From the IMG/VR virus record IMGVR_UViG_3300021425_000074, positions 1 to 39,628 of that record: a DNA stretch of 39,628 nt, one strand, 5' to 3'. This document shows, one piece after another, positions 4,392-25,331 of the stretch. Every line of letters starts with the position of its first letter. The first letter of the stretch is position 1. Both the position numbers and the translations under genes were made by a program. The DNA is from a virus. The notes under the pieces were generated by a model. The model did not search any database. It was not told where the DNA came from and was given only the letters and a program-made list of their open reading frames with translations.

Positions 4392-5061
4392 AAAATATCC
4401 AGAATGTGTTTTAACTGGTTGTGATTCTAATACTGAATGGCAACTAAATTGGTTTATTGAAAATTATGGGCAACATGAAAAGCGACCTTTGATTATTGCA
4501 GACTTCGGTATGTCTGAACAATATTTAAAATATGTTTCAAGTCATCCACGAGTCAATGGGATTATGAACCTCCGTAAAACTAAAGAACAAGGTTGGTTCA
4601 ATAAACCGATAGCAATGTTTAATTCACCAGCAGTCAAAACGGTTTGGTTGGATACTGATTGCGAAATAAAAACTAATTTGAACCCTCTATTCAGAATGAT
4701 CGTACCAAACAAATTGAATATGGTAGAAGATAAACCATGGACGAAAAGACGTAAAGAAATTTGGCATAACAGCGGAGTTGTAGGGTTTATCGGCAGACCA
4801 CAGATACTCCACACTTGGTGTAATGCTATTCGCGATAACCCCAATATCGGTGACCAAGAAGTTTTACACACTTTGCTTAACCCTATCATGCGAATCACGC
4901 ATATCAATGATATTCCGCCTGAGTGGAATGTGATGCGTCTTGCTACAGATGAAGATGGTTATACTGGACCTATAAGTATTCAGCACCATACAGGGGCAAA
5001 AGGTAAAGTTAAAATAAAAGGTCTTATGAAAATTAAAGAGGTGATATCTAAAAATGCCTAG
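4381..5061 (+). CDS. Putative GT-A glycosyltransferase
   Basis: A 226-aa protein with KTVWLDTDCEIKTNL, a DxD (D91-D93) at the end of a hydrophobic strand as in GT-A nucleotide-sugar transferases. Downstream, WHNSGVVGFIGR is analogous to the N-S/A-G strand of GT8-type enzymes, and a late IQHHTGAKG may supply metal ligands, as the C-terminal histidines of GT8 do. It differs from the GT25 pair. It overlaps both neighbours (11 bases upstream, 8 bases downstream), indicating tight co-translation. Confidence 0.65.
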   Translation: MSNRKYPECVLTGCDSNTEWQLNWFIENYGQHEKRPLIIADFGMSEQYLKYVSSHPRVNGIMNLRKTKEQGWFNKPIAMFNSPAVKTVWLDTDCEIKTNLNPLFRMIVPNKLNMVEDKPWTKRRKEIWHNSGVVGFIGRPQILHTWCNAIRDNPNIGDQEVLHTLLNPIMRITHINDIPPEWNVMRLATDEDGYTGPISIQHHTGAKGKVKIKGLMKIKEVISKNA

Positions 5062-5704
5062 AGTAGTTCATGTTATTGGTAATGGTGATTGTGCAGATTT
5101 TTATAATAACGCACCAAGAAAAGGTTTGAAACTTACTTGTAACTTTTCACCGTTTGAAGTTCCTGATCAGTATGCTACGATGATCGTTGATTTTAAAATG
5201 ATGCATGCTATTAATAAACAAGAAGTATCTATGCCTCCTGGTGAGTGGATCGTTGGCATGCGTCCTAAATTATACTGTGAAAAGCATCCTGGTTTCCACA
5301 TGAAAATAGCAGGTCGGATAAAAGAGTTCTATACAAAGAAACCAAGTTACTGCCCAAACTACACAGATTTCAACTGTGGTCACATGGCAGTGTATTATGC
5401 TGCTGCTAAATTAAAAGCAGACGTTGTGCATATGTGGGGGTTTGATTCTATTATGGATTTCAATCTACGATCTTATACTGACCTCGTTATGAACTCAGAT
5501 CGTGGTAATATGAACAACCATAGACTTGCTGAAAACTGGAGACCATTATGGGCAAACATATTTAAGGACTTCAGTGATCAAGGGCAATACTCTAATGGTG
5601 AGACTAGGACTAAATTTGTAATTCACCATAAACATGATCAGATTAAGTTCCCTGTCACAGACAATGTTTCTATTGAAGTTCACACAAAAAATGATAAAAA
5701 ATAA
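5054..5704 (+). CDS. Unassigned protein of the glycan cassette
   Basis: A 216-aa protein. It opens with a beta strand and VIGNGDCADF, a glycine-containing turn like that of nucleotide-sugar binding or MptE/DUF115-type proteins. The middle has NCGHMAVYYAAAKLKADVVHMWGFDS, a helix then strand as in a Rossmann-like half. I cannot assign a family. Position as last gene of the cassette, coupled to a glycosyltransferase by overlap and with GAGGTGAT ahead of its start, argues for a role in glycan synthesis or transfer. Alternative: a GT29/GT42-like transferase; no definitive motif supports this. Confidence 0.6.
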   Translation: MPRVVHVIGNGDCADFYNNAPRKGLKLTCNFSPFEVPDQYATMIVDFKMMHAINKQEVSMPPGEWIVGMRPKLYCEKHPGFHMKIAGRIKEFYTKKPSYCPNYTDFNCGHMAVYYAAAKLKADVVHMWGFDSIMDFNLRSYTDLVMNSDRGNMNNHRLAENWRPLWANIFKDFSDQGQYSNGETRTKFVIHHKHDQIKFPVTDNVSIEVHTKNDKK

Positions 5705-12144: not shown

Positions 12145-13860
12145 TTATCCACCAACACCAGAAACAAAACCTGTTTTCATTGCCTGACCATTCCCAGTGG
12201 ATGGTCGGGTTTCCCCTGCCAATACTGTACCACCGCCACTAACTTGAGATGAATTATCCTGAACGATAATCGGTCTACCTCCTGGCATTGCTGCAGGAAC
12301 AGGTGTGGCATCTACAGAAGTTGCACCTTTACCTGATAACTGTCCTTCTTTTATTTCCTGAGGTCCACCTTTACCTTTGCTGACGACTCTATAATTGCCT
12401 TCATCGTCTTGAGCAACAGAAGTCATAGACAGTCCCTGTTTTCTAGCAGCAATCTGTGCTTGTTTTTTGGATTTATATTTTTCCTTACCAAATCCTTTTG
12501 TTTCAGCGTCATACTTATCTAATGCTTCACCTGCCGCTTGTTCCTCACCCTTCTTACGAGCAACCATCTCGGTTCGTGACTCACCAGTGTCATCAAATTT
12601 AAATCCTCGTATTGTTGCTGCTGCTTCCTTTTCATCAACGAATGGAATATCAAACCTTTCGACTGCTGCAGCAATTAACTCAATAATGCCATTGAATGCA
12701 CGTTTTAACATTACAATCGGAGACATAATGATATCACGAATTATGTCTGTAAATTTAAATCCTTTAAGAAATTCTGCAGCATTTTCAAATCCCATTTTAT
12801 CAAGGATAAATGCCACAGCACCTTTCAACAGATCAAGAGGCATACCAACAATACCTTCAAGCAGTCCAGAGATGCCACCAAGCAGTCCCATCAATAACTT
12901 TTCTGCGATAGTGCCATCAGTGTTTACAAATCCTTTAAATGCACCTGTAATGGAATCAATTACACCCATGATCAAAGTAATCGGCCATGCAAGTCGACCA
13001 ACAACACGACCAATTGTTCTAAGAGTTTTTAAGAATCCACTTCCTTCACTTGCAAACGAGAAAGCATTCTTAACCATTCCAACAACTCTAGCAAGTGGAC
13101 CCTCTGCTGAAAAGAATGTTCTGATAGGTTTAAAAAAGTCTCCAACTGTTTGACCGATGCGACCAAAGAAATCCTTTACAAGTTTTATCTCTTCACCTTG
13201 AAATGATCCGAACAATAGATTTTTGATTGCTATAAATCCATTCTTTAAAACTTTGAAAATGCTATTCTCGGTGAGAAACTTGAGTGCATCATCTCCACCA
13301 GATGTGAAGAAAGTTCTGATCCTACCAAAATAACCTTTGAGTGCCTTAAATGCTTTTTGTGCTGCCTCTGGATCAGGCATTAATACCTTTAATGCACTAC
13401 CAATACGACCCATAAGACCTCTTATACTCTTACCAATATCAGCAGCATATTCACCAAGTTTTGATGCTTTGAATAATGTTCTAAATGCAGTTCTGATTTG
13501 CCTAAACACAAAACGAATTGCAGCAGTGACAGGTTTAAATAATGTCTTAAGCAGTTTTGTGACATTCTGAAAATAATCTTTTACAGCAGTCACCATTGCA
13601 GTAGCAGCAACTATTGCTGCAGCAAGAAACGGATTGATAGACTTTTCTGCTTCCTTTTCAGGTGAAGCACCTCCACCTCCTCCACCACCAGAACCACCTT
13701 CACGTGCTGCTTCTGCCATCTGACGAAGAAGTTTCTCTTGGATACCATACAGTTTTTGGAAGTCGTCTCTCAGTCCATTAACACCACGAGCAATTACCTC
13801 ATCAACTCTCATCTGAGAACTGAGTTTTGCGCTTACATCATTTAAGGTTGCTTCTGCCAT
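12145..13860 (-). CDS. Tape-measure/tail-length protein (gp29 position)
   Basis: A 571-aa protein, close to T4 gp29 (590 aa), directly after the gp26/gp51-like chaperone genes, where tape-measure proteins lie in most tailed phages. The N-terminus is helical (VDEVIARGVNGLRDDFQKL). A glycine-rich linker (residues 55-66) follows, then a hydrophobic segment INPFLAAAIVAATAMVTAV, then many amphipathic helices with repeated FK/LK/F-rich turns (LFKPVTAAIRFVFRQIRT) and further hydrophobic spans. The C-terminal 120 residues are polar and glycine-rich. This hydrophobic helical pattern suits a protein packed in the tail tube and ejected into the membrane. Identification is by position, length and composition; sequence similarity to gp29 is not evident by eye. 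Confidence 0.6.
   Translation of the reverse strand: MAEATLNDVSAKLSSQMRVDEVIARGVNGLRDDFQKLYGIQEKLLRQMAEAAREGGSGGGGGGGASPEKEAEKSINPFLAAAIVAATAMVTAVKDYFQNVTKLLKTLFKPVTAAIRFVFRQIRTAFRTLFKASKLGEYAADIGKSIRGLMGRIGSALKVLMPDPEAAQKAFKALKGYFGRIRTFFTSGGDDALKFLTENSIFKVLKNGFIAIKNLLFGSFQGEEIKLVKDFFGRIGQTVGDFFKPIRTFFSAEGPLARVVGMVKNAFSFASEGSGFLKTLRTIGRVVGRLAWPITLIMGVIDSITGAFKGFVNTDGTIAEKLLMGLLGGISGLLEGIVGMPLDLLKGAVAFILDKMGFENAAEFLKGFKFTDIIRDIIMSPIVMLKRAFNGIIELIAAAVERFDIPFVDEKEAAATIRGFKFDDTGESRTEMVARKKGEEQAAGEALDKYDAETKGFGKEKYKSKKQAQIAARKQGLSMTSVAQDDEGNYRVVSKGKGGPQEIKEGQLSGKGATSVDATPVPAAMPGGRPIIVQDNSSQVSGGGTVLAGETRPSTGNGQAMKTGFVSGVGG
12183..12209 (+). terminator. Possible terminator for gp32 transcript
   Basis: CCTGACCAT (12183-12191) and ATGGTCGGG (12201-12209) form a 9-bp stem with one G-T pair and a 9-base loop, followed by only three T residues. 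It lies within the end of the convergent tape-measure gene, 40 bases after the gp32 stop. The weak U-tract makes this uncertain. Confidence 0.3.
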
Positions 13861-13861
13861 C

Positions 13862-14056
13862 TTAATATCCTGCTGTCTGTTCTTGTTGTTGCTTTTCTCT
13901 TTGTTCTTTTAGATATTGGACTAACATAGTGAGGTATATTTCCCTCTCCCAAGGCAACATTTCTTCAAGTTCTTTTATCGAATAATTATGGTGTTGCATT
14001 AATTGAAAATTTGTTGTGTAAAAATTTTCTAATGATTCATGCGAGAGGCAAACTAG
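13862..14056 (-). CDS. gp51-like tail assembly chaperone segment (-1 frame)
   Basis: An open frame between gp26 and the tape-measure gene in the -1 frame of gp26. It encodes 64 aa, including ESLENFYTTNFQLMQHH, YSIKELEEMLPWEREIY and a Q/E/K-rich tail. The NFxLMxHHxYSxxELExMxPWEREIY pattern is that of small gp51-like hub assembly proteins of marine T4-like phages. No ATG, GTG or TTG precedes the conserved part: upstream in frame there is only a TGA, and the first ATG lies 20 codons in, after half of the conserved block. It is best read as the C-terminal extension of gp26 made by frameshifting at 14056-14062, giving about 303 aa. T4 gp51 is a separate, longer gene. The stop is one base before the tape-measure ATG. 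Confidence 0.7.
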   Translation of the reverse strand, partial: LVCLSHESLENFYTTNFQLMQHHNYSIKELEEMLPWEREIYLTMLVQYLKEQREKQQQEQTAGY

Positions 14057-14772
14057 AAAAAATTGTCCATACCCTCCATCAATAATTCATTTTCGTGTTG
14101 ACAATTTTCACATGTAAATTTCATGTTGTAACTCAGTTTAGGAATATCTCCGATAAACTTTGCAATCTTTTCAAACTGTTCAGAGTTTAATGAATCCATA
14201 AAATTCACAACCTCTTGCCTTGATTCATTCTTTAAATCAATCCGTTCTTCATCTGTCAGAAGTGTTTTCATGCAAGAGATGATTAGGTTCATTGAGGATT
14301 CACTGGTCTTTGGATTATCATCACCATCAAAGACATCAGTGTTTGACATTAGGTCACTATATGTTGGATAGTGCATTTCAATTGCAATATCAGGTGTCAA
14401 CTGAATATTTTGTGGTTTTATATCACCAATGACTTTTGTCTGCATGATGTCTACTTTCACATCATTATCATGTTCACACTCTGAACATTTTATGACTAAT
14501 TCAGCAGTTTCACCAACCGATTTTGCCCTGATTCGTGTAAAGATATAATCCACATCAAATGACGATAAACTTGTAACATCGATGTCCTCTTGGACACATG
14601 ATTTAATTGTATCTGTGATTGCCCGAATTACCTGCTTTGGTTGGTTTGATTCTCCTGCAAGTAGCAAGATTTTTTGTTCCTTTACTAGGAACGGTCTGTA
14701 GTGAATTACTTCACCTGATGATGGTAATTTAAGATCATACCAAATAGTTTCATTCAAACGTGGCAGTGCCAT
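14053..14772 (-). CDS. gp26: gp26-like baseplate hub assembly protein
   Basis: A 239-aa protein of the T4 gp26 (T4_baseplate) type; T4 gp26 has 208 aa. Recognisable N-terminus: MALPRLNETIWYDLKLPSSG, then YRPFLVKEQKILLLAGE, then FDVDYIFTRIRAKSVGE. Two CxxC pairs, C96/C99 (CSEC) and C221/C224 (CENC), probably bind zinc as a split ribbon. gp26 helps assemble the baseplate hub; its place before the tape measure fits a tail assembly chaperone role. The last three codons and stop read TTT TTC TAG, forming the slippery site described separately. Start ATG at 14772, one gene after the gp54-like protein. Confidence 0.82.
   Translation of the reverse strand: MALPRLNETIWYDLKLPSSGEVIHYRPFLVKEQKILLLAGESNQPKQVIRAITDTIKSCVQEDIDVTSLSSFDVDYIFTRIRAKSVGETAELVIKCSECEHDNDVKVDIMQTKVIGDIKPQNIQLTPDIAIEMHYPTYSDLMSNTDVFDGDDNPKTSESSMNLIISCMKTLLTDEERIDLKNESRQEVVNFMDSLNSEQFEKIAKFIGDIPKLSYNMKFTCENCQHENELLMEGMDNFF
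14056..14062 (-). promoter_or_regulatory. Predicted -1 ribosomal frameshift site (T TTT TTC)
   Basis: Read on the minus strand, the last sense codons of gp26 are AAT TTT TTC followed at once by TAG. T TTT TTC is a canonical X XXY YYZ heptamer in the zero frame. Slipping back one base gives TTT TTT CTA GTT TGC and enters the gp51-like frame with no stop for 64 codons. Phage P2 uses T TTT TTG in its equivalent E/E+E' site. No obvious downstream stem was found. Confidence 0.65.
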
Positions 14773-14786
14773 TATTTAATTTTCCT

Positions 14787-15452
14787 TTATCTTAAAAAGC
14801 TAGAAAGAGATCCTAAGCTAGCGTCAAGTGAGAACAGTCCCTGATTGTCTTCTACAGGTGACCATTTAGTGTATGTCATTTCAACTGTTAACTGCATAAC
14901 GCCATCGGCGTCGTTAGTAAATTCAGTTTGTGTTATATTTGTTGGGTATGCTTCTTCTAACAAAGCACTATAAACAGTTCCTTGCCCAATACCCACATTG
15001 AGACTGATCGGACCTGCACCAAACTTTTTATTAGTTATGGGTTTTCTTAATTGATGAATTTTAATTTGTCTTGCATAGTTGCTATGGTAAAATGCTTTCC
15101 CTGTGTTTTGCGAAGTTGTTGAGGAATACCATGTATCAAAATATTTTCTTATGCCATAATCATTTAATAATAGGAAAGTCAGATTAACAGACCCTGCACC
15201 AGAATATCCATATGCAACTTTACGTGCTTGGACACCCATCTTTTGATCTAATGTTAAAACGGTTTTGGGTGGAACACCTACACTTTGGCAGAGTAAGTTC
15301 AACTCATTACCACTCATCAAATTTCTGATAGCACTGAGGATACCGCCACTATTAGAATTGAAATCGGTTGGAAGTTCTACCATAAATTGGTTTGGTTTTG
15401 CTACACCTAATTTGAAAGATACTGCGGATTTTAACTGGTCTATGGTTGCCAT
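14787..15452 (-). CDS. gp54: gp54-like tail-tube initiator
   Basis: A 221-aa protein with features of the tail-tube fold family (gp19/gp54/gp48): a hydrophobic N-terminal region (NQFMVELPTDF), a long central region with YGIRKYFDTWYSSTTSQ and YARQIKIHQLRKPI, and a final strand pair AYPTNITQTEFTNDADGVMQLTVEMTYTKW, typical of tube proteins. T4 gp54 (320 aa) forms the ring on gp48 from which the tube grows. The marine version is shorter. It could instead be a gp19-type tube protein, but the gene order gp4, (gp2-like), gp54, gp26, gp51 and its separation from sheath genes favour gp54. Confidence 0.62.
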   Translation of the reverse strand: MATIDQLKSAVSFKLGVAKPNQFMVELPTDFNSNSGGILSAIRNLMSGNELNLLCQSVGVPPKTVLTLDQKMGVQARKVAYGYSGAGSVNLTFLLLNDYGIRKYFDTWYSSTTSQNTGKAFYHSNYARQIKIHQLRKPITNKKFGAGPISLNVGIGQGTVYSALLEEAYPTNITQTEFTNDADGVMQLTVEMTYTKWSPVEDNQGLFSLDASLGSLSSFLR

Positions 15453-18614: not shown

Positions 18615-19939
18615 TGGCTGAACCAAGTAAAAAGTATGTATTAGAAAGTGTACAAATATTTTCTTCACGATCTACTATCCCAGTAGAAATAGCAAATGTT
18701 GTATCTGACTTAGATATATTTGAGCATTTAGATTGCCCATTTTTAACTGCAAAACTAGCATTTGCTGATGAATCAAATCTTATGGGTAGACTTGATTTAC
18801 AAGGTGCTGAATTTGTTGTTATTAAAATTAAACCTTCTTCTGCAGCAGAACCTGTCGTAGAAAAACGGTTTGTTATAGAAACTGTCATATCACAAACAAA
18901 AATAAATGAAACGTCTGAACTCGTACTCCTTAGTCTTTATGAAGATATTCTTTTTAAATCAAATTATAAAAACGTAAACAAACCATATTCTGGTAGTCCT
19001 TTTCAAATGATATCAGATATTGCCAAAGAATTTTTGGATAAAGAAGTTGAACAAGAAGGCGAATCTAGTTTTCAAAATAGAATGAAACTAATCGTTCCAA
19101 ATTTAGATCCTTTGAAAGCAATCGCTTGGATTAAAAATAGAATGACAACCTCTGATGGCGTTCCTGATTTTATCTATTCTACTCTCGGTGTGGATAAACT
19201 CATAGTGAACGACCTTCTTACTATGATTGATAAAGAACCCATAAATGCTTCTAAACCCTTTATGTATGCTTCTACGCCTAACCTTGCGGAAGAAGAAAGG
19301 GGTGGGACTAATTATATTCCAATATTGAGTTATAACGAAGAACAAAAAGAAAATATGTTTGAGATGATTCAAAAGGGTTTAGTGGGCGCAAATTACCAAT
19401 TTTATGATGCATTTACTTCTCAAGTTCATAAACACGATTTTAATTTTAAAAAAGATATTGTAGATGCATTACCTTCTACGAAAGAAAAAGAATACAACTT
19501 TGCTGAATATGAAATAGATGGTGAAGTTTTAAATAATATTCAGTCACAAAAAATAACTCAAATAGGTGGTTCGGGCGCATACAATAATGGATTGTCATCA
19601 CCAAAATCTTACAACGAAGAAAAAGAAAGCAGTGATTATGCGAAAAAGGTGATCGGTAATGTTATGAAACAACACTTACTGAAAGCACCTATTACAATAA
19701 GAGTTTCTGGCGTTGGGTTTTTGAAACCTGATCATAACATGACTATCGGTAACACCCTTAGAATTTATTTTTTACAAAATAAACCTGCAAGGGCCAACAG
19801 TACTAATAATTGGGATATGAAAAGGTCTGGTGATTATTTAATGTATGCAACTAAACATTCTTTCACTGTTGAAAGATATGACATAAGCATTACATGTGCA
19901 AAAATGAAAAACTTTACAAGTGAGCAAGCAATCGTATGA
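18614..19939 (+). CDS. Baseplate hub protein, gp27-like
   Basis: A 441-aa protein located directly upstream of the gp5-like gene, the same relation as the gp27-gp5 hub complex of T4 (gp27: 391 aa). The N-terminus (KKYVLESVQIFSSRSTIPVEI) starts a beta-barrel-like region followed by a helical insert (PFQMISDIAKEFLDKEVEQ) and a second barrel (TIRVSGVGFLKPDHNMTIGN, YLMYATKHSFTVERYDISITC). This double-barrel order is typical of hub proteins (gp27, Mu gp44, VgrG N-terminus). It probably forms the trimeric torus at the tube tip. Identification is structural inference; overlap with the next gene is four bases. Confidence 0.6.
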   Translation: MAEPSKKYVLESVQIFSSRSTIPVEIANVVSDLDIFEHLDCPFLTAKLAFADESNLMGRLDLQGAEFVVIKIKPSSAAEPVVEKRFVIETVISQTKINETSELVLLSLYEDILFKSNYKNVNKPYSGSPFQMISDIAKEFLDKEVEQEGESSFQNRMKLIVPNLDPLKAIAWIKNRMTTSDGVPDFIYSTLGVDKLIVNDLLTMIDKEPINASKPFMYASTPNLAEEERGGTNYIPILSYNEEQKENMFEMIQKGLVGANYQFYDAFTSQVHKHDFNFKKDIVDALPSTKEKEYNFAEYEIDGEVLNNIQSQKITQIGGSGAYNNGLSSPKSYNEEKESSDYAKKVIGNVMKQHLLKAPITIRVSGVGFLKPDHNMTIGNTLRIYFLQNKPARANSTNNWDMKRSGDYLMYATKHSFTVERYDISITCAKMKNFTSEQAIV

Positions 19940-20883
19940 TACCACAATCCCCCTCTTTCTATGGTGATCAAACTCGTTGGTTTGTTGGTAGAGTTATCAG
20001 TATCAACGATCCACTTGAAATGGGTAGAATAAAAGTCAGGATCGTAGGGATTCATGACAACTCAGAAATTAGAGATGCTGATCTACCATGGGCACAGGTT
20101 GTAGTACCTGTCACAGAAGGCGGTAGTTCAGGTCTAGGAGCAAGCACAGGTATTAAAGAACAGGCACAAGTCTTTGGTGTATTCTTAGATGGTGTTCATT
20201 CTCAACTTCCATTAGTCGTTGGTTCTATGCCAAAGTTTGAAGCAGATATTGAATCAACAGCAGGTGTTTTTCAACCAAATATACCAAGTCGGTTTGACCC
20301 TGCAGTAAATAAGAATCTATTACCTGCTGATCAGGTTGATGAAGAAAATCTATATGGAGAAACCAATATAGAAAAAGCATATAATTTTCTTATTACAAAG
20401 GAAGGATTAAGTTTATCCCCTCAAGCAGCGGCAGGAGTTATAGGAAACTTTTGTGAAGAGTCTGGTGCGAATGCTAATGATGGAGATATTGATCCTCTTG
20501 CGGTTTCAGGTATTCCAGGAGAAAATTCTTTTGGTATTGCTCAGTGGAATCCTGCAGCAGCTGCTGGTAATAGACTCGGTGCACTTCAAGAGTTCTCTGC
20601 TTCATGTAATCTAACATATACAAGTTTATATGCACAATTGTTATGGACTCGTAAAGAGTTGACCACGTTTCCGTATCTTGGATATGCTGAATTGAAAAAG
20701 GCAGAAACGCCAGAAGAAGCAGCACTTATATTTATGCGTAAATTTGAAAGACCAGGATATCAAACAGAACGAACTGCTGCAAATGAGATAAAGAGAAAAA
20801 CTGGAAAAGACGGTAAATATAAACGTCTTGGTGAAGAAGAACGAATTGAGTTTGCCGAAGAAATATTTAGGAAGTTTGAATAA
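19936..20883 (+). CDS. gp5: gp5-like hub lysozyme: OB fold + tail lysozyme domain
   Basis: A 315-aa protein with two domains. Residues 1-105 match the gp5 N-terminal OB fold (RWFVGRVISINDPLEMGRIKVRIVGIH...LPWAQVVVP). Residues 135-315 match the Phage_lysozyme2 (phage tail lysozyme) domain: AYNFLITKEGLSLSPQAAAGVIGNF, catalytic-type E175 in CEESG, and SFGIAQWNPAAA. It should cut peptidoglycan during tail penetration. T4 gp5 (575 aa) carries a T4-lysozyme-type domain and ends with a beta-helix spike. Here the lysozyme family is different and the spike is encoded separately (23304-25331). Overlaps the upstream stop by four bases and shares one base with the next start. Confidence 0.82.
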   Translation: MIPQSPSFYGDQTRWFVGRVISINDPLEMGRIKVRIVGIHDNSEIRDADLPWAQVVVPVTEGGSSGLGASTGIKEQAQVFGVFLDGVHSQLPLVVGSMPKFEADIESTAGVFQPNIPSRFDPAVNKNLLPADQVDEENLYGETNIEKAYNFLITKEGLSLSPQAAAGVIGNFCEESGANANDGDIDPLAVSGIPGENSFGIAQWNPAAAAGNRLGALQEFSASCNLTYTSLYAQLLWTRKELTTFPYLGYAELKKAETPEEAALIFMRKFERPGYQTERTAANEIKRKTGKDGKYKRLGEEERIEFAEEIFRKFE

Positions 20884-23303: not shown

Positions 23304-25331
23304 ATGTCTGACGATGAATTTTTAATTGAAGAAAAAGATAAAAATTTACCAAGTAAAGGTGATCCTTTTTCTGATCCCAAACGTGTTTATCCTAAACGCG
23401 AATATGCAAATGCACCTTCTGTAAACCTTGAAGCAAGGGGAATTGAAGAAAACGAACTTTTTATTGGTGGTGGTGATGTAGGGATTGACCTCGAGTTAAA
23501 AAATTATCCTTCATCCAAAGCACCATTGAATCAGGTTAAAAGAACTGTTTCTGGTCATGTTCAGGAAATCGATGATACTCCTGGCCGCGAACGTATGCTA
23601 TTCAGACATAAGACTGGAGCAGGTGTTGAAATGCGTTCCGATGGTACTGTCGTTATCAATGCTACAAATAATATTATTCGTGTTGCAGCAGGAAGTGAAA
23701 AGGTTATCATTGAAGGTGATGGGGATATTGTTTATCATGGCAACTTGAATCTTCGTGTTGATGGTGACTTTGATTTAAATGTTGGTGGTAATTTTACAGT
23801 TACAACTGGCGGTGACATGGAAGAAGATGTTAAAGGTGGGTATCGCCAAGACGTAAATAACAATCACCAAACGTTCGTCAATAGAAATGTATCAAAGACT
23901 ATTACTGGCGCAGAAACTACCCTTGTTCTTGGTGATCAAAATAATATCGTCAAAGGCGATCAAAGCACAACAGTTGGTAAAAATAAAGAAGATATCGTTG
24001 GTTCCGAATATCAAATATCTGCTGAAAACAAATACATCGCAACATCACCCGATATCAATATAGGTGCGTCAAGTTTAACTGTTATTGGTGATAGTGGAAC
24101 AATGGGTGGTGAGAATATTATCACTTATAATTACAATCAATATACAGGTCACTCAATTACTGCTGGCGACACAATCACAACCCATACGGCATATACGACA
24201 AGAACACAGGCAACTGAATTTGTTGGTTCATTGACTGGTAATGCTGACACTGCAACACAAGCAGGGAGAGCTGGTACTGCTGGTGGAATTGGTGCTGGTG
24301 GTTCAGCAGGAACAAAGAATACTGCAGCTGCGCAAGCGGTTGATACAAAAGCAACAGTACAACCTACAAACTCAGTTATGAAAAATAGTTGGTTTAACTC
24401 TGCCTATGGTATCTTCAAAGTTGCCGTAGATGTTGGAGATGTGATCTATAACTCTATCAACAGGTTTGTAGATTATGGTGGGGTTCAAAATAGAACATTA
24501 ACAGTCAGTGAAGTAAGATCAAAATTAAGAAACCCAGCAACTCAAAATAATGAAGATTTCATCGGTACTGCTATTTCAGAAAATGTTTTAAATACAACTT
24601 ATTCTAATGCTGTTCCTTCTCTGATAGGTTCTATCATTGATGATGAACCGACACCTAGAACTCCGAATCCAAAAGAAGTGTTTGGTAAAATTAAAGGAGC
24701 AGAAGCAAAACGATTTGCAGGATCAGTACAAAATGATATCGTAACAATTCAACCGAATCCAACTTACGACCCAAGAAGAAAGAAAACTATTACCGAAAGA
24801 ACAAAACTTGCCAGAGGAATTAATATGGCAAAGTTCTTTGGAAGTCATGGTGACCCTATTACTATGGATCATATGTTCTTTGAAGATAGATACGAAACTG
24901 CAAAATACCTTTATCTTCATGCTCAATTAATGAGATCTATTATGGAAGATGAAGGTGAGTTTGATGAGTTTAGACTTGTAGTTTCGGAAGGCGTGTATAA
25001 ACCTTCAGAAACAGAAACAATAGCAGCAGGTAGTGTCAATGATTATAGGACATATGGTCGTGCTATTGTATACGAACTAAGAAATCGTAAAGGCGAAATT
25101 GCTTTAAAACAAACATTTAAACTTGCTGCTTGGTGGAAAGATAGTCAGCAGTACGAAAAAATGATATTAGACTACGACACATATAATGTTGATGGGTCAC
25201 TCAATGCTCAAATTATTGTGATTATGCCAGAGTTGCAAGAAGGATATAAAGCAAGCTATCAAAACAGACTTGAAACGAGATATAATAATTATGTTCAAGC
25301 AACTGGTGAACTTATAGAGATCCTTGCATAA
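23304..25331 (+). CDS. Baseplate central spike protein (gp5 C-terminal type)
   Basis: A 675-aa protein. Residues 70-130 (KRTVSGHVQEIDDTPGRERMLF, then HKTGAGVEMRSDGTVVINA) are the conserved entry to gp5C/VgrG-type beta-helices. Residues 130-260 are short repeats of the GDxxLxVxG type (VDGDFDLNVGGNFTVTTGGD) that build a trimeric spike needle. A linker of Gly/Ala/Thr repeats (residues 310-350) leads to a C-terminal domain (residues 490-675) containing AKYLYLHAQLMRSI, LVVSEGVYKPS and a SVNDYRTYGRAIVYEL block, which echoes an M15 peptidase core without its zinc ligands. It pierces the outer membrane and guides the lysozyme. Begins four bases after the preceding stop. Confidence 0.75.
   Translation: MSDDEFLIEEKDKNLPSKGDPFSDPKRVYPKREYANAPSVNLEARGIEENELFIGGGDVGIDLELKNYPSSKAPLNQVKRTVSGHVQEIDDTPGRERMLFRHKTGAGVEMRSDGTVVINATNNIIRVAAGSEKVIIEGDGDIVYHGNLNLRVDGDFDLNVGGNFTVTTGGDMEEDVKGGYRQDVNNNHQTFVNRNVSKTITGAETTLVLGDQNNIVKGDQSTTVGKNKEDIVGSEYQISAENKYIATSPDINIGASSLTVIGDSGTMGGENIITYNYNQYTGHSITAGDTITTHTAYTTRTQATEFVGSLTGNADTATQAGRAGTAGGIGAGGSAGTKNTAAAQAVDTKATVQPTNSVMKNSWFNSAYGIFKVAVDVGDVIYNSINRFVDYGGVQNRTLTVSEVRSKLRNPATQNNEDFIGTAISENVLNTTYSNAVPSLIGSIIDDEPTPRTPNPKEVFGKIKGAEAKRFAGSVQNDIVTIQPNPTYDPRRKKTITERTKLARGINMAKFFGSHGDPITMDHMFFEDRYETAKYLYLHAQLMRSIMEDEGEFDEFRLVVSEGVYKPSETETIAAGSVNDYRTYGRAIVYELRNRKGEIALKQTFKLAAWWKDSQQYEKMILDYDTYNVDGSLNAQIIVIMPELQEGYKASYQNRLETRYNNYVQATGELIEILA

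Follow-up and report, generated by a model that had tools for sequence, protein, structure and literature searches.

The window analyzed here, the whole 39,628-nucleotide stretch of IMG/VR virus record IMGVR_UViG_3300021425_000074, carries on its minus strand a homolog of T4 gene 26 whose 3′ end overlaps a second open frame. The features of this locus are the following:

14787 to 15452, minus strand: tail tube gene, 221 aa, upstream of gp26 (phrog_45, 4.9e-28)
14053 to 14772, minus strand: gp26 gene, short form (TAC-N), 239 aa (PF12322, 3.8e-58; phrog_150, 4.7e-62)
14072 to 14077, minus strand: Shine–Dalgarno (SD)-like GGAGGG, a probable stimulator located 9 nt upstream of the heptamer (from sequence; anti-SD signal, p 2e-12; GAG bias, p 6.5e-14)
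14056 to 14062, minus strand: slippery heptamer T TTT TTC, in the zero frame and abutting the stop TAG (from sequence; T TTT TTN in 263/266 relatives)
13996 to 14042, minus strand: tentative feature, a weak hairpin (−5.8 kcal/mol) predicted 3′ of the slip site (from folding)
13862 to 14056, minus strand: −1 frame extension (TAC-C), 64 codons plus TAA (phrog_634, 2.9e-27; substitution pattern; hhalign to gp51 residues 200–246, E 2e-8)
12145 to 13860, minus strand: tape-measure-like gene, 571 aa (phrog_1535 tape measure, 1.6e-10)

The product of the gp26 gene matches the PF12322 profile over its full length (3.8e-58). Read on the minus strand, the gene ends in AAT (14064–14062), TTT, TTC, and the stop TAG (14055–14053), so that the zero-frame T TTT TTC that an earlier note on this DNA had described at the stop is present, to the base. 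In-frame T TTT TTN occurs six times in the 12,126 codons of a window-wide control, and the gp26 copy is the only one at a 3′ end. The −1 frame, as had also been noted, is closed on its 5′ side by a TGA (14089–14087) and stays open for 64 codons past gp26, to a TAA at 13864–13862; the ATG of the tape-measure-like gene lies one base past this stop. The extension encoded in this frame matches phrog_634, 'baseplate hub assembly catalyst' (2.9e-27), and has no ATG, GTG, or TTG ahead of its conserved part, the first ATG (13999–13997) lying inside that block. A −1 shift at the heptamer would yield the short form of 239 aa and a fusion of 303 aa, matching the earlier prediction (239 and about 303 aa).

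Elsewhere in the window, on the plus strand, a 216-aa ORF (5054–5704) carries an in-frame A AAA AAT heptamer six codons before its end. Also on the plus strand, phrog_430 (gp5-like hub/tail lysozyme) is split between two ORFs, its N-terminal part (15–121) in 19936–20883 and its middle part (328–595) in 23304–25331, with an 805-aa ORF lacking any PHROG match between them.

The earlier note had proposed aligning the junction across related genomes in search of a conserved heptamer and missing start codons. For this comparison, peptide patterns internal to gp26 were used to gather homologs from viral contigs, and named phages were added, giving 266 gp26 genes that form 137 clusters at 70% identity; because these patterns lie within gp26 and not at the junction, the frequency of the heptamer is not a product of ascertainment. 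An in-frame T TTT TTN falls among the last nine codons in 263 of the 266 genes (134 of the 137 clusters). Across the 263, the codon before the phenylalanines ends in T and the first Phe codon is TTT, followed by TTC (203 genes), TTT (49), TTA (9), or TTG (2). The variable last codon indicates conservation of the DNA string and not of the FF dipeptide; at the remaining FF pairs of these genes, the heptamer string occurs in only 4 of 108 cases. A naive calculation that treats the clusters as independent puts the chance of these codon choices at 10^-49.6. A zero-frame stop follows the heptamer by 0–8 codons in all 263 genes, from which it follows that the short product is kept as well. Among five additional distant phages, Aeh1, Milchi, X1, and OLIVR5 carry the heptamer, and Klebsiella phage May (Ackermannviridae) does not.

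The substitution pattern changes frame at the same point. Across 72 disjoint pairs of relatives, changes favor zero-frame third positions up to the heptamer and −1 frame third positions directly after it. Over 99 pairs, the first 17 codons past the heptamer—the stretch ahead of the usual first ATG—show 209 changes at the first, 139 at the second, and 448 at the third position of the −1 codons, and single changes there are more often synonymous (333) than non-synonymous (158). The −1 frame is open for 56–69 codons in every cluster with a contig that reaches its end; in P-SSM2, the predicted junction peptide, running from gp26 into this frame, is ...SFFRISMAHEDLESYYK. We put at about 0.95 the probability that, as these patterns suggest, a programmed −1 ribosomal frameshift at the end of gp26 yields two tail-assembly chaperones, a short one of 239 aa and a long one of 303 aa, the reading that the earlier note had advanced and that the heptamer, the frame switch, the missing start codon, and the SD-like stimulator together favor.

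The −1 frame could alternatively be translated separately, by re-initiation after gp26 or by internal initiation, to give a free small gp51. Most GenBank annotations assume as much, with a small CDS annotated in P-SSM2, KVP40, phiM19, and others, and a start codon overlaps the gp26 stop in 19 of the 134 clusters. But conservation of the −1 coding sequence starts already at the heptamer, ahead of the usual first ATG, and in the window that first ATG (13999) has no SD sequence (+2.4 kcal/mol). A search of the Desulfovibrio phage 7757 extension recovered no start codon anywhere in its −1 frame. Separate translation would, moreover, leave the upkeep of the heptamer without a reason, and T4 gp51 is itself a fusion. 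As a replacement for frameshifting, this explanation seems very unlikely. In the 19 clusters with a start overlapping the gp26 stop, re-initiation could nonetheless add a separate gp51. KVP40, phiM19, and Rhizobium phage AF3 all combine the heptamer with a start of this kind (TAATG/TGATG), and for these three phages frameshifting and re-initiation are each possible.

Programmed frameshifting is further favored by signals around the slip site, of which the SD-like element is clear and the downstream hairpin, at the window junction, weak. Across clusters, the strongest anti-SD energy minimum falls at the SD-like site (−6.2 kcal/mol) and is stronger than when those residues are re-coded synonymously (p 2e-12), and glutamate at this site is encoded by GAG in 53 of 75 cases, versus 28% elsewhere (p 6.5e-14). 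The spacing between GGAGGG and the heptamer resembles that of the Escherichia coli dnaX frameshift signal. Folding around the slip site is more stable than in shuffled sequence, although a second folding signal, about 200 nt further on and within the following gene, shows that the slip site is not alone in having one. Several relatives have stronger downstream hairpins, that of P-SSM2 comprising 11 bp. A uniformly conserved hairpin was considered and rejected: a recurrent stem, pairing positions 9–13 with 29–33 after the heptamer, is present in some clusters only and is weak in the window.

Slippage of RNA polymerase on the T run would yield mRNAs with altered numbers of U and hence the fusion by normal translation. 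A run of eight T in 27 of the 134 clusters might accommodate this, but in the window and in 91 of the 134 the run is six, which is short for bacterial transcriptional slippage, and an SD-like stimulator located 9 nt upstream is in keeping with ribosomes, not polymerase; we regard this route as extremely improbable. Sequencing error and gene decay, for which nothing speaks except the frame break itself, are refuted as its cause, since 263 genes drawn from many phages and metagenomes share this junction and both of its frames show purifying selection. Sequence evolution supports the slip site, the coding −1 frame, and the maintenance of both products of the proposed frameshift; its efficiency, the product ratio, the partners, and the role are what we infer.

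Under the mechanism proposed, the SD-like GGAGGG, possibly together with the downstream hairpin, would hold ribosomes at T TTT TTC. A minority would slip back by one base, both tRNAs pairing anew with TTT TTT, and would read 64 further codons to produce the 303-aa long form, which carries the C-terminal domain of gp51. On the lambda model, the short form may coat the tape-measure protein and the extension may recruit tail tube or hub subunits; the roles of the short and long lambda chaperones, G and GT, have been summarized in review (PMC5009743). In T4, gp26 and gp51 are described as hub assembly chaperones, of which gp51 is essential but not in the final particle, whereas the presence of gp26 there is uncertain (PMC3004832). 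An essential protein that is absent from the particle fits a chaperone role.

The slip site of lambda G/GT is G GGA AAG, and the heptamer of P2 E/E+E′ is T TTT TTG. As in lambda, one gene of the window would give rise to both a short and a long chaperone through a −1 frameshift, and the gene order—tail tube, gp26, tape measure—lends weight to the G/GT analogy that the earlier note had drawn. The differences are the T TTT TTC heptamer, the T4-type contractile tail, and the lack of any visible sequence relationship: the only family for which gp26 passes the Pfam cut-off is PF12322, so that this comparison gives no homology to lambda gpG/gpGT. Profile and fold searches of the PDB with gp26 and gp51 returned no solved relative and no gp26 or gp51 chain, and a BFVD fold search returned members of the gp26/gp51 family along with further phage proteins, many of them unnamed, with no link to lambda-type chaperones. 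The window's gp26 system probably works like G/GT, a likeness of function for which these searches gave no sign of homology to lambda gpG. The P2 system is also similar in its −1 shift on a T-rich heptamer, and two gp26 loci carry T TTT TTG itself, but we know of no relationship between the P2 E/E+E′ proteins and gp26/gp51.

Gene 51 has a gp26-family gene next to it, on the opposite strand, in T4 and in 38 further T4-type loci. The two proteins are recognizably related by BLASTP (1e-13 in phage E26, 2e-6 in T4), and both of the E26 proteins match PF12322 over its length. In profile comparisons, window-type gp26 aligns to gp51 residues 7–201 (E 1.8e-11) and the −1 extension to residues 200–246 (hhalign, E 2e-8); gp51 is therefore collinear with the predicted frameshift product, with the join at the slip site. 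On this sequence evidence, the −1 extension is a homolog of the last ~48 residues of T4 gp51. T4 gp51 is, by the same alignments, the long form, in which a single frame holds both the gp26 domain and the extension; T4 gp26 is a paralog of the first 200 residues of gp51. The earlier statement that T4 has two separate genes thus holds as to their number, but misses that one is a gp26 domain joined to the extension and the other a short paralog, as the profile alignments and tree indicate. Neither T4 copy, when searched for the heptamer, keeps the slip string. The difference from the window is one of two divergent paralogous genes without a heptamer versus one recoded gene; the window has a single match, on a contig that is a fragment, and not the T4-type paralogous pair. 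A tree resolves three groups (T4 gp26, T4 gp51, and the frameshift type) but, being unrooted and with long branches, gives no ancestral state between the T4 and frameshift types. The predicted structures of T4-type in-frame gp51 and of gp26 have pLDDT values of 89.5 and 92.9.

A further arrangement occurs in the Ackermannviridae and Vibrio phage D495, where the −1 extension is kept and the heptamer is absent. Their junctions read (A/G/C)TT TTC with a stop two codons on, overlapped by ATG, ATT, or ATC. In the Ackermannviridae (loci L310, L312–L329, L268, and L270), the extension has the form HL[IM]FExDLxSYF...MPWHL and the junction is (A/G)TT TTC AT(T/C) T(A/G)A. Several heptamer-less loci have no ATG, GTG, or TTG ahead of the conserved part. 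Single-tRNA slippage on TTC and re-initiation at a rare start are each possible at these junctions. The chances seem evenly balanced that the family makes its short and long chaperones in at least three exchangeable ways: by the heptamer, by duplication (as in T4), and by the Ackermannviridae −1 junction, through either TTC slippage or AUU/AUC/AUG re-initiation at the stop.

Frameshifting is reportedly conserved in several T4-like groups, with T4 genes 26 and 51 named, according to the abstract of a 2022 study by Vladimirov and colleagues. That study identified the chaperone genes of T4-like phages (Vladimirov, Gautam, & Davidson, Virology, 2022), and a later paper reports from it that some of these phages have a short gene and a longer fused gene in place of a frameshift (PMC10885494). 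This prior work rules out novelty for frameshifting in T4-like phages: the extension of G/GT logic to T4-type phages, which the earlier note had inferred, had already been described. Literature searches found no other prior description. The window phage is thus a well-supported further example of the known T4-like chaperone frameshift set, sharing the genes of the 2022 set and differing in being an uncultured marine relative. Possibly new are the quantified slip site (137 clusters), the stimulatory signals, and the heptamer-less Ackermannviridae junction.

The predicted recoding bears on several older observations. T4 was called an exception to the tail-chaperone frameshift in a 2016 review (PMC5009743), and cyanophage and vibriophage gp51 were reported to lack the first ~200 residues, with Aeh1 lacking gp51 altogether (Sullivan et al., 2010; PMC3037559). 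In Aeromonas phage Aeh1 (locus L307, around 2240–2420), gp51 is found as an unannotated −1 extension behind GAT TTT TTC GAC TGA. Among the cyanophage, vibriophage, rhizophage, and Aeromonas phage records examined, gp26 and gp51 are labeled as unrelated small genes, or gp51 is missing. Cyanophage, Cronobacter phage, and Aeromonas phage records (L018–L021, L262, L263, and L307) leave gp51 unannotated with the −1 extension present. In the records examined, gp26 and gp51 should be re-annotated as one recoded gene. The predicted frameshift would explain both the T4 'exception' (PMC5009743) and the truncated or missing gp51 of other T4-like phages (PMC3037559), in line with Vladimirov et al. (2022).
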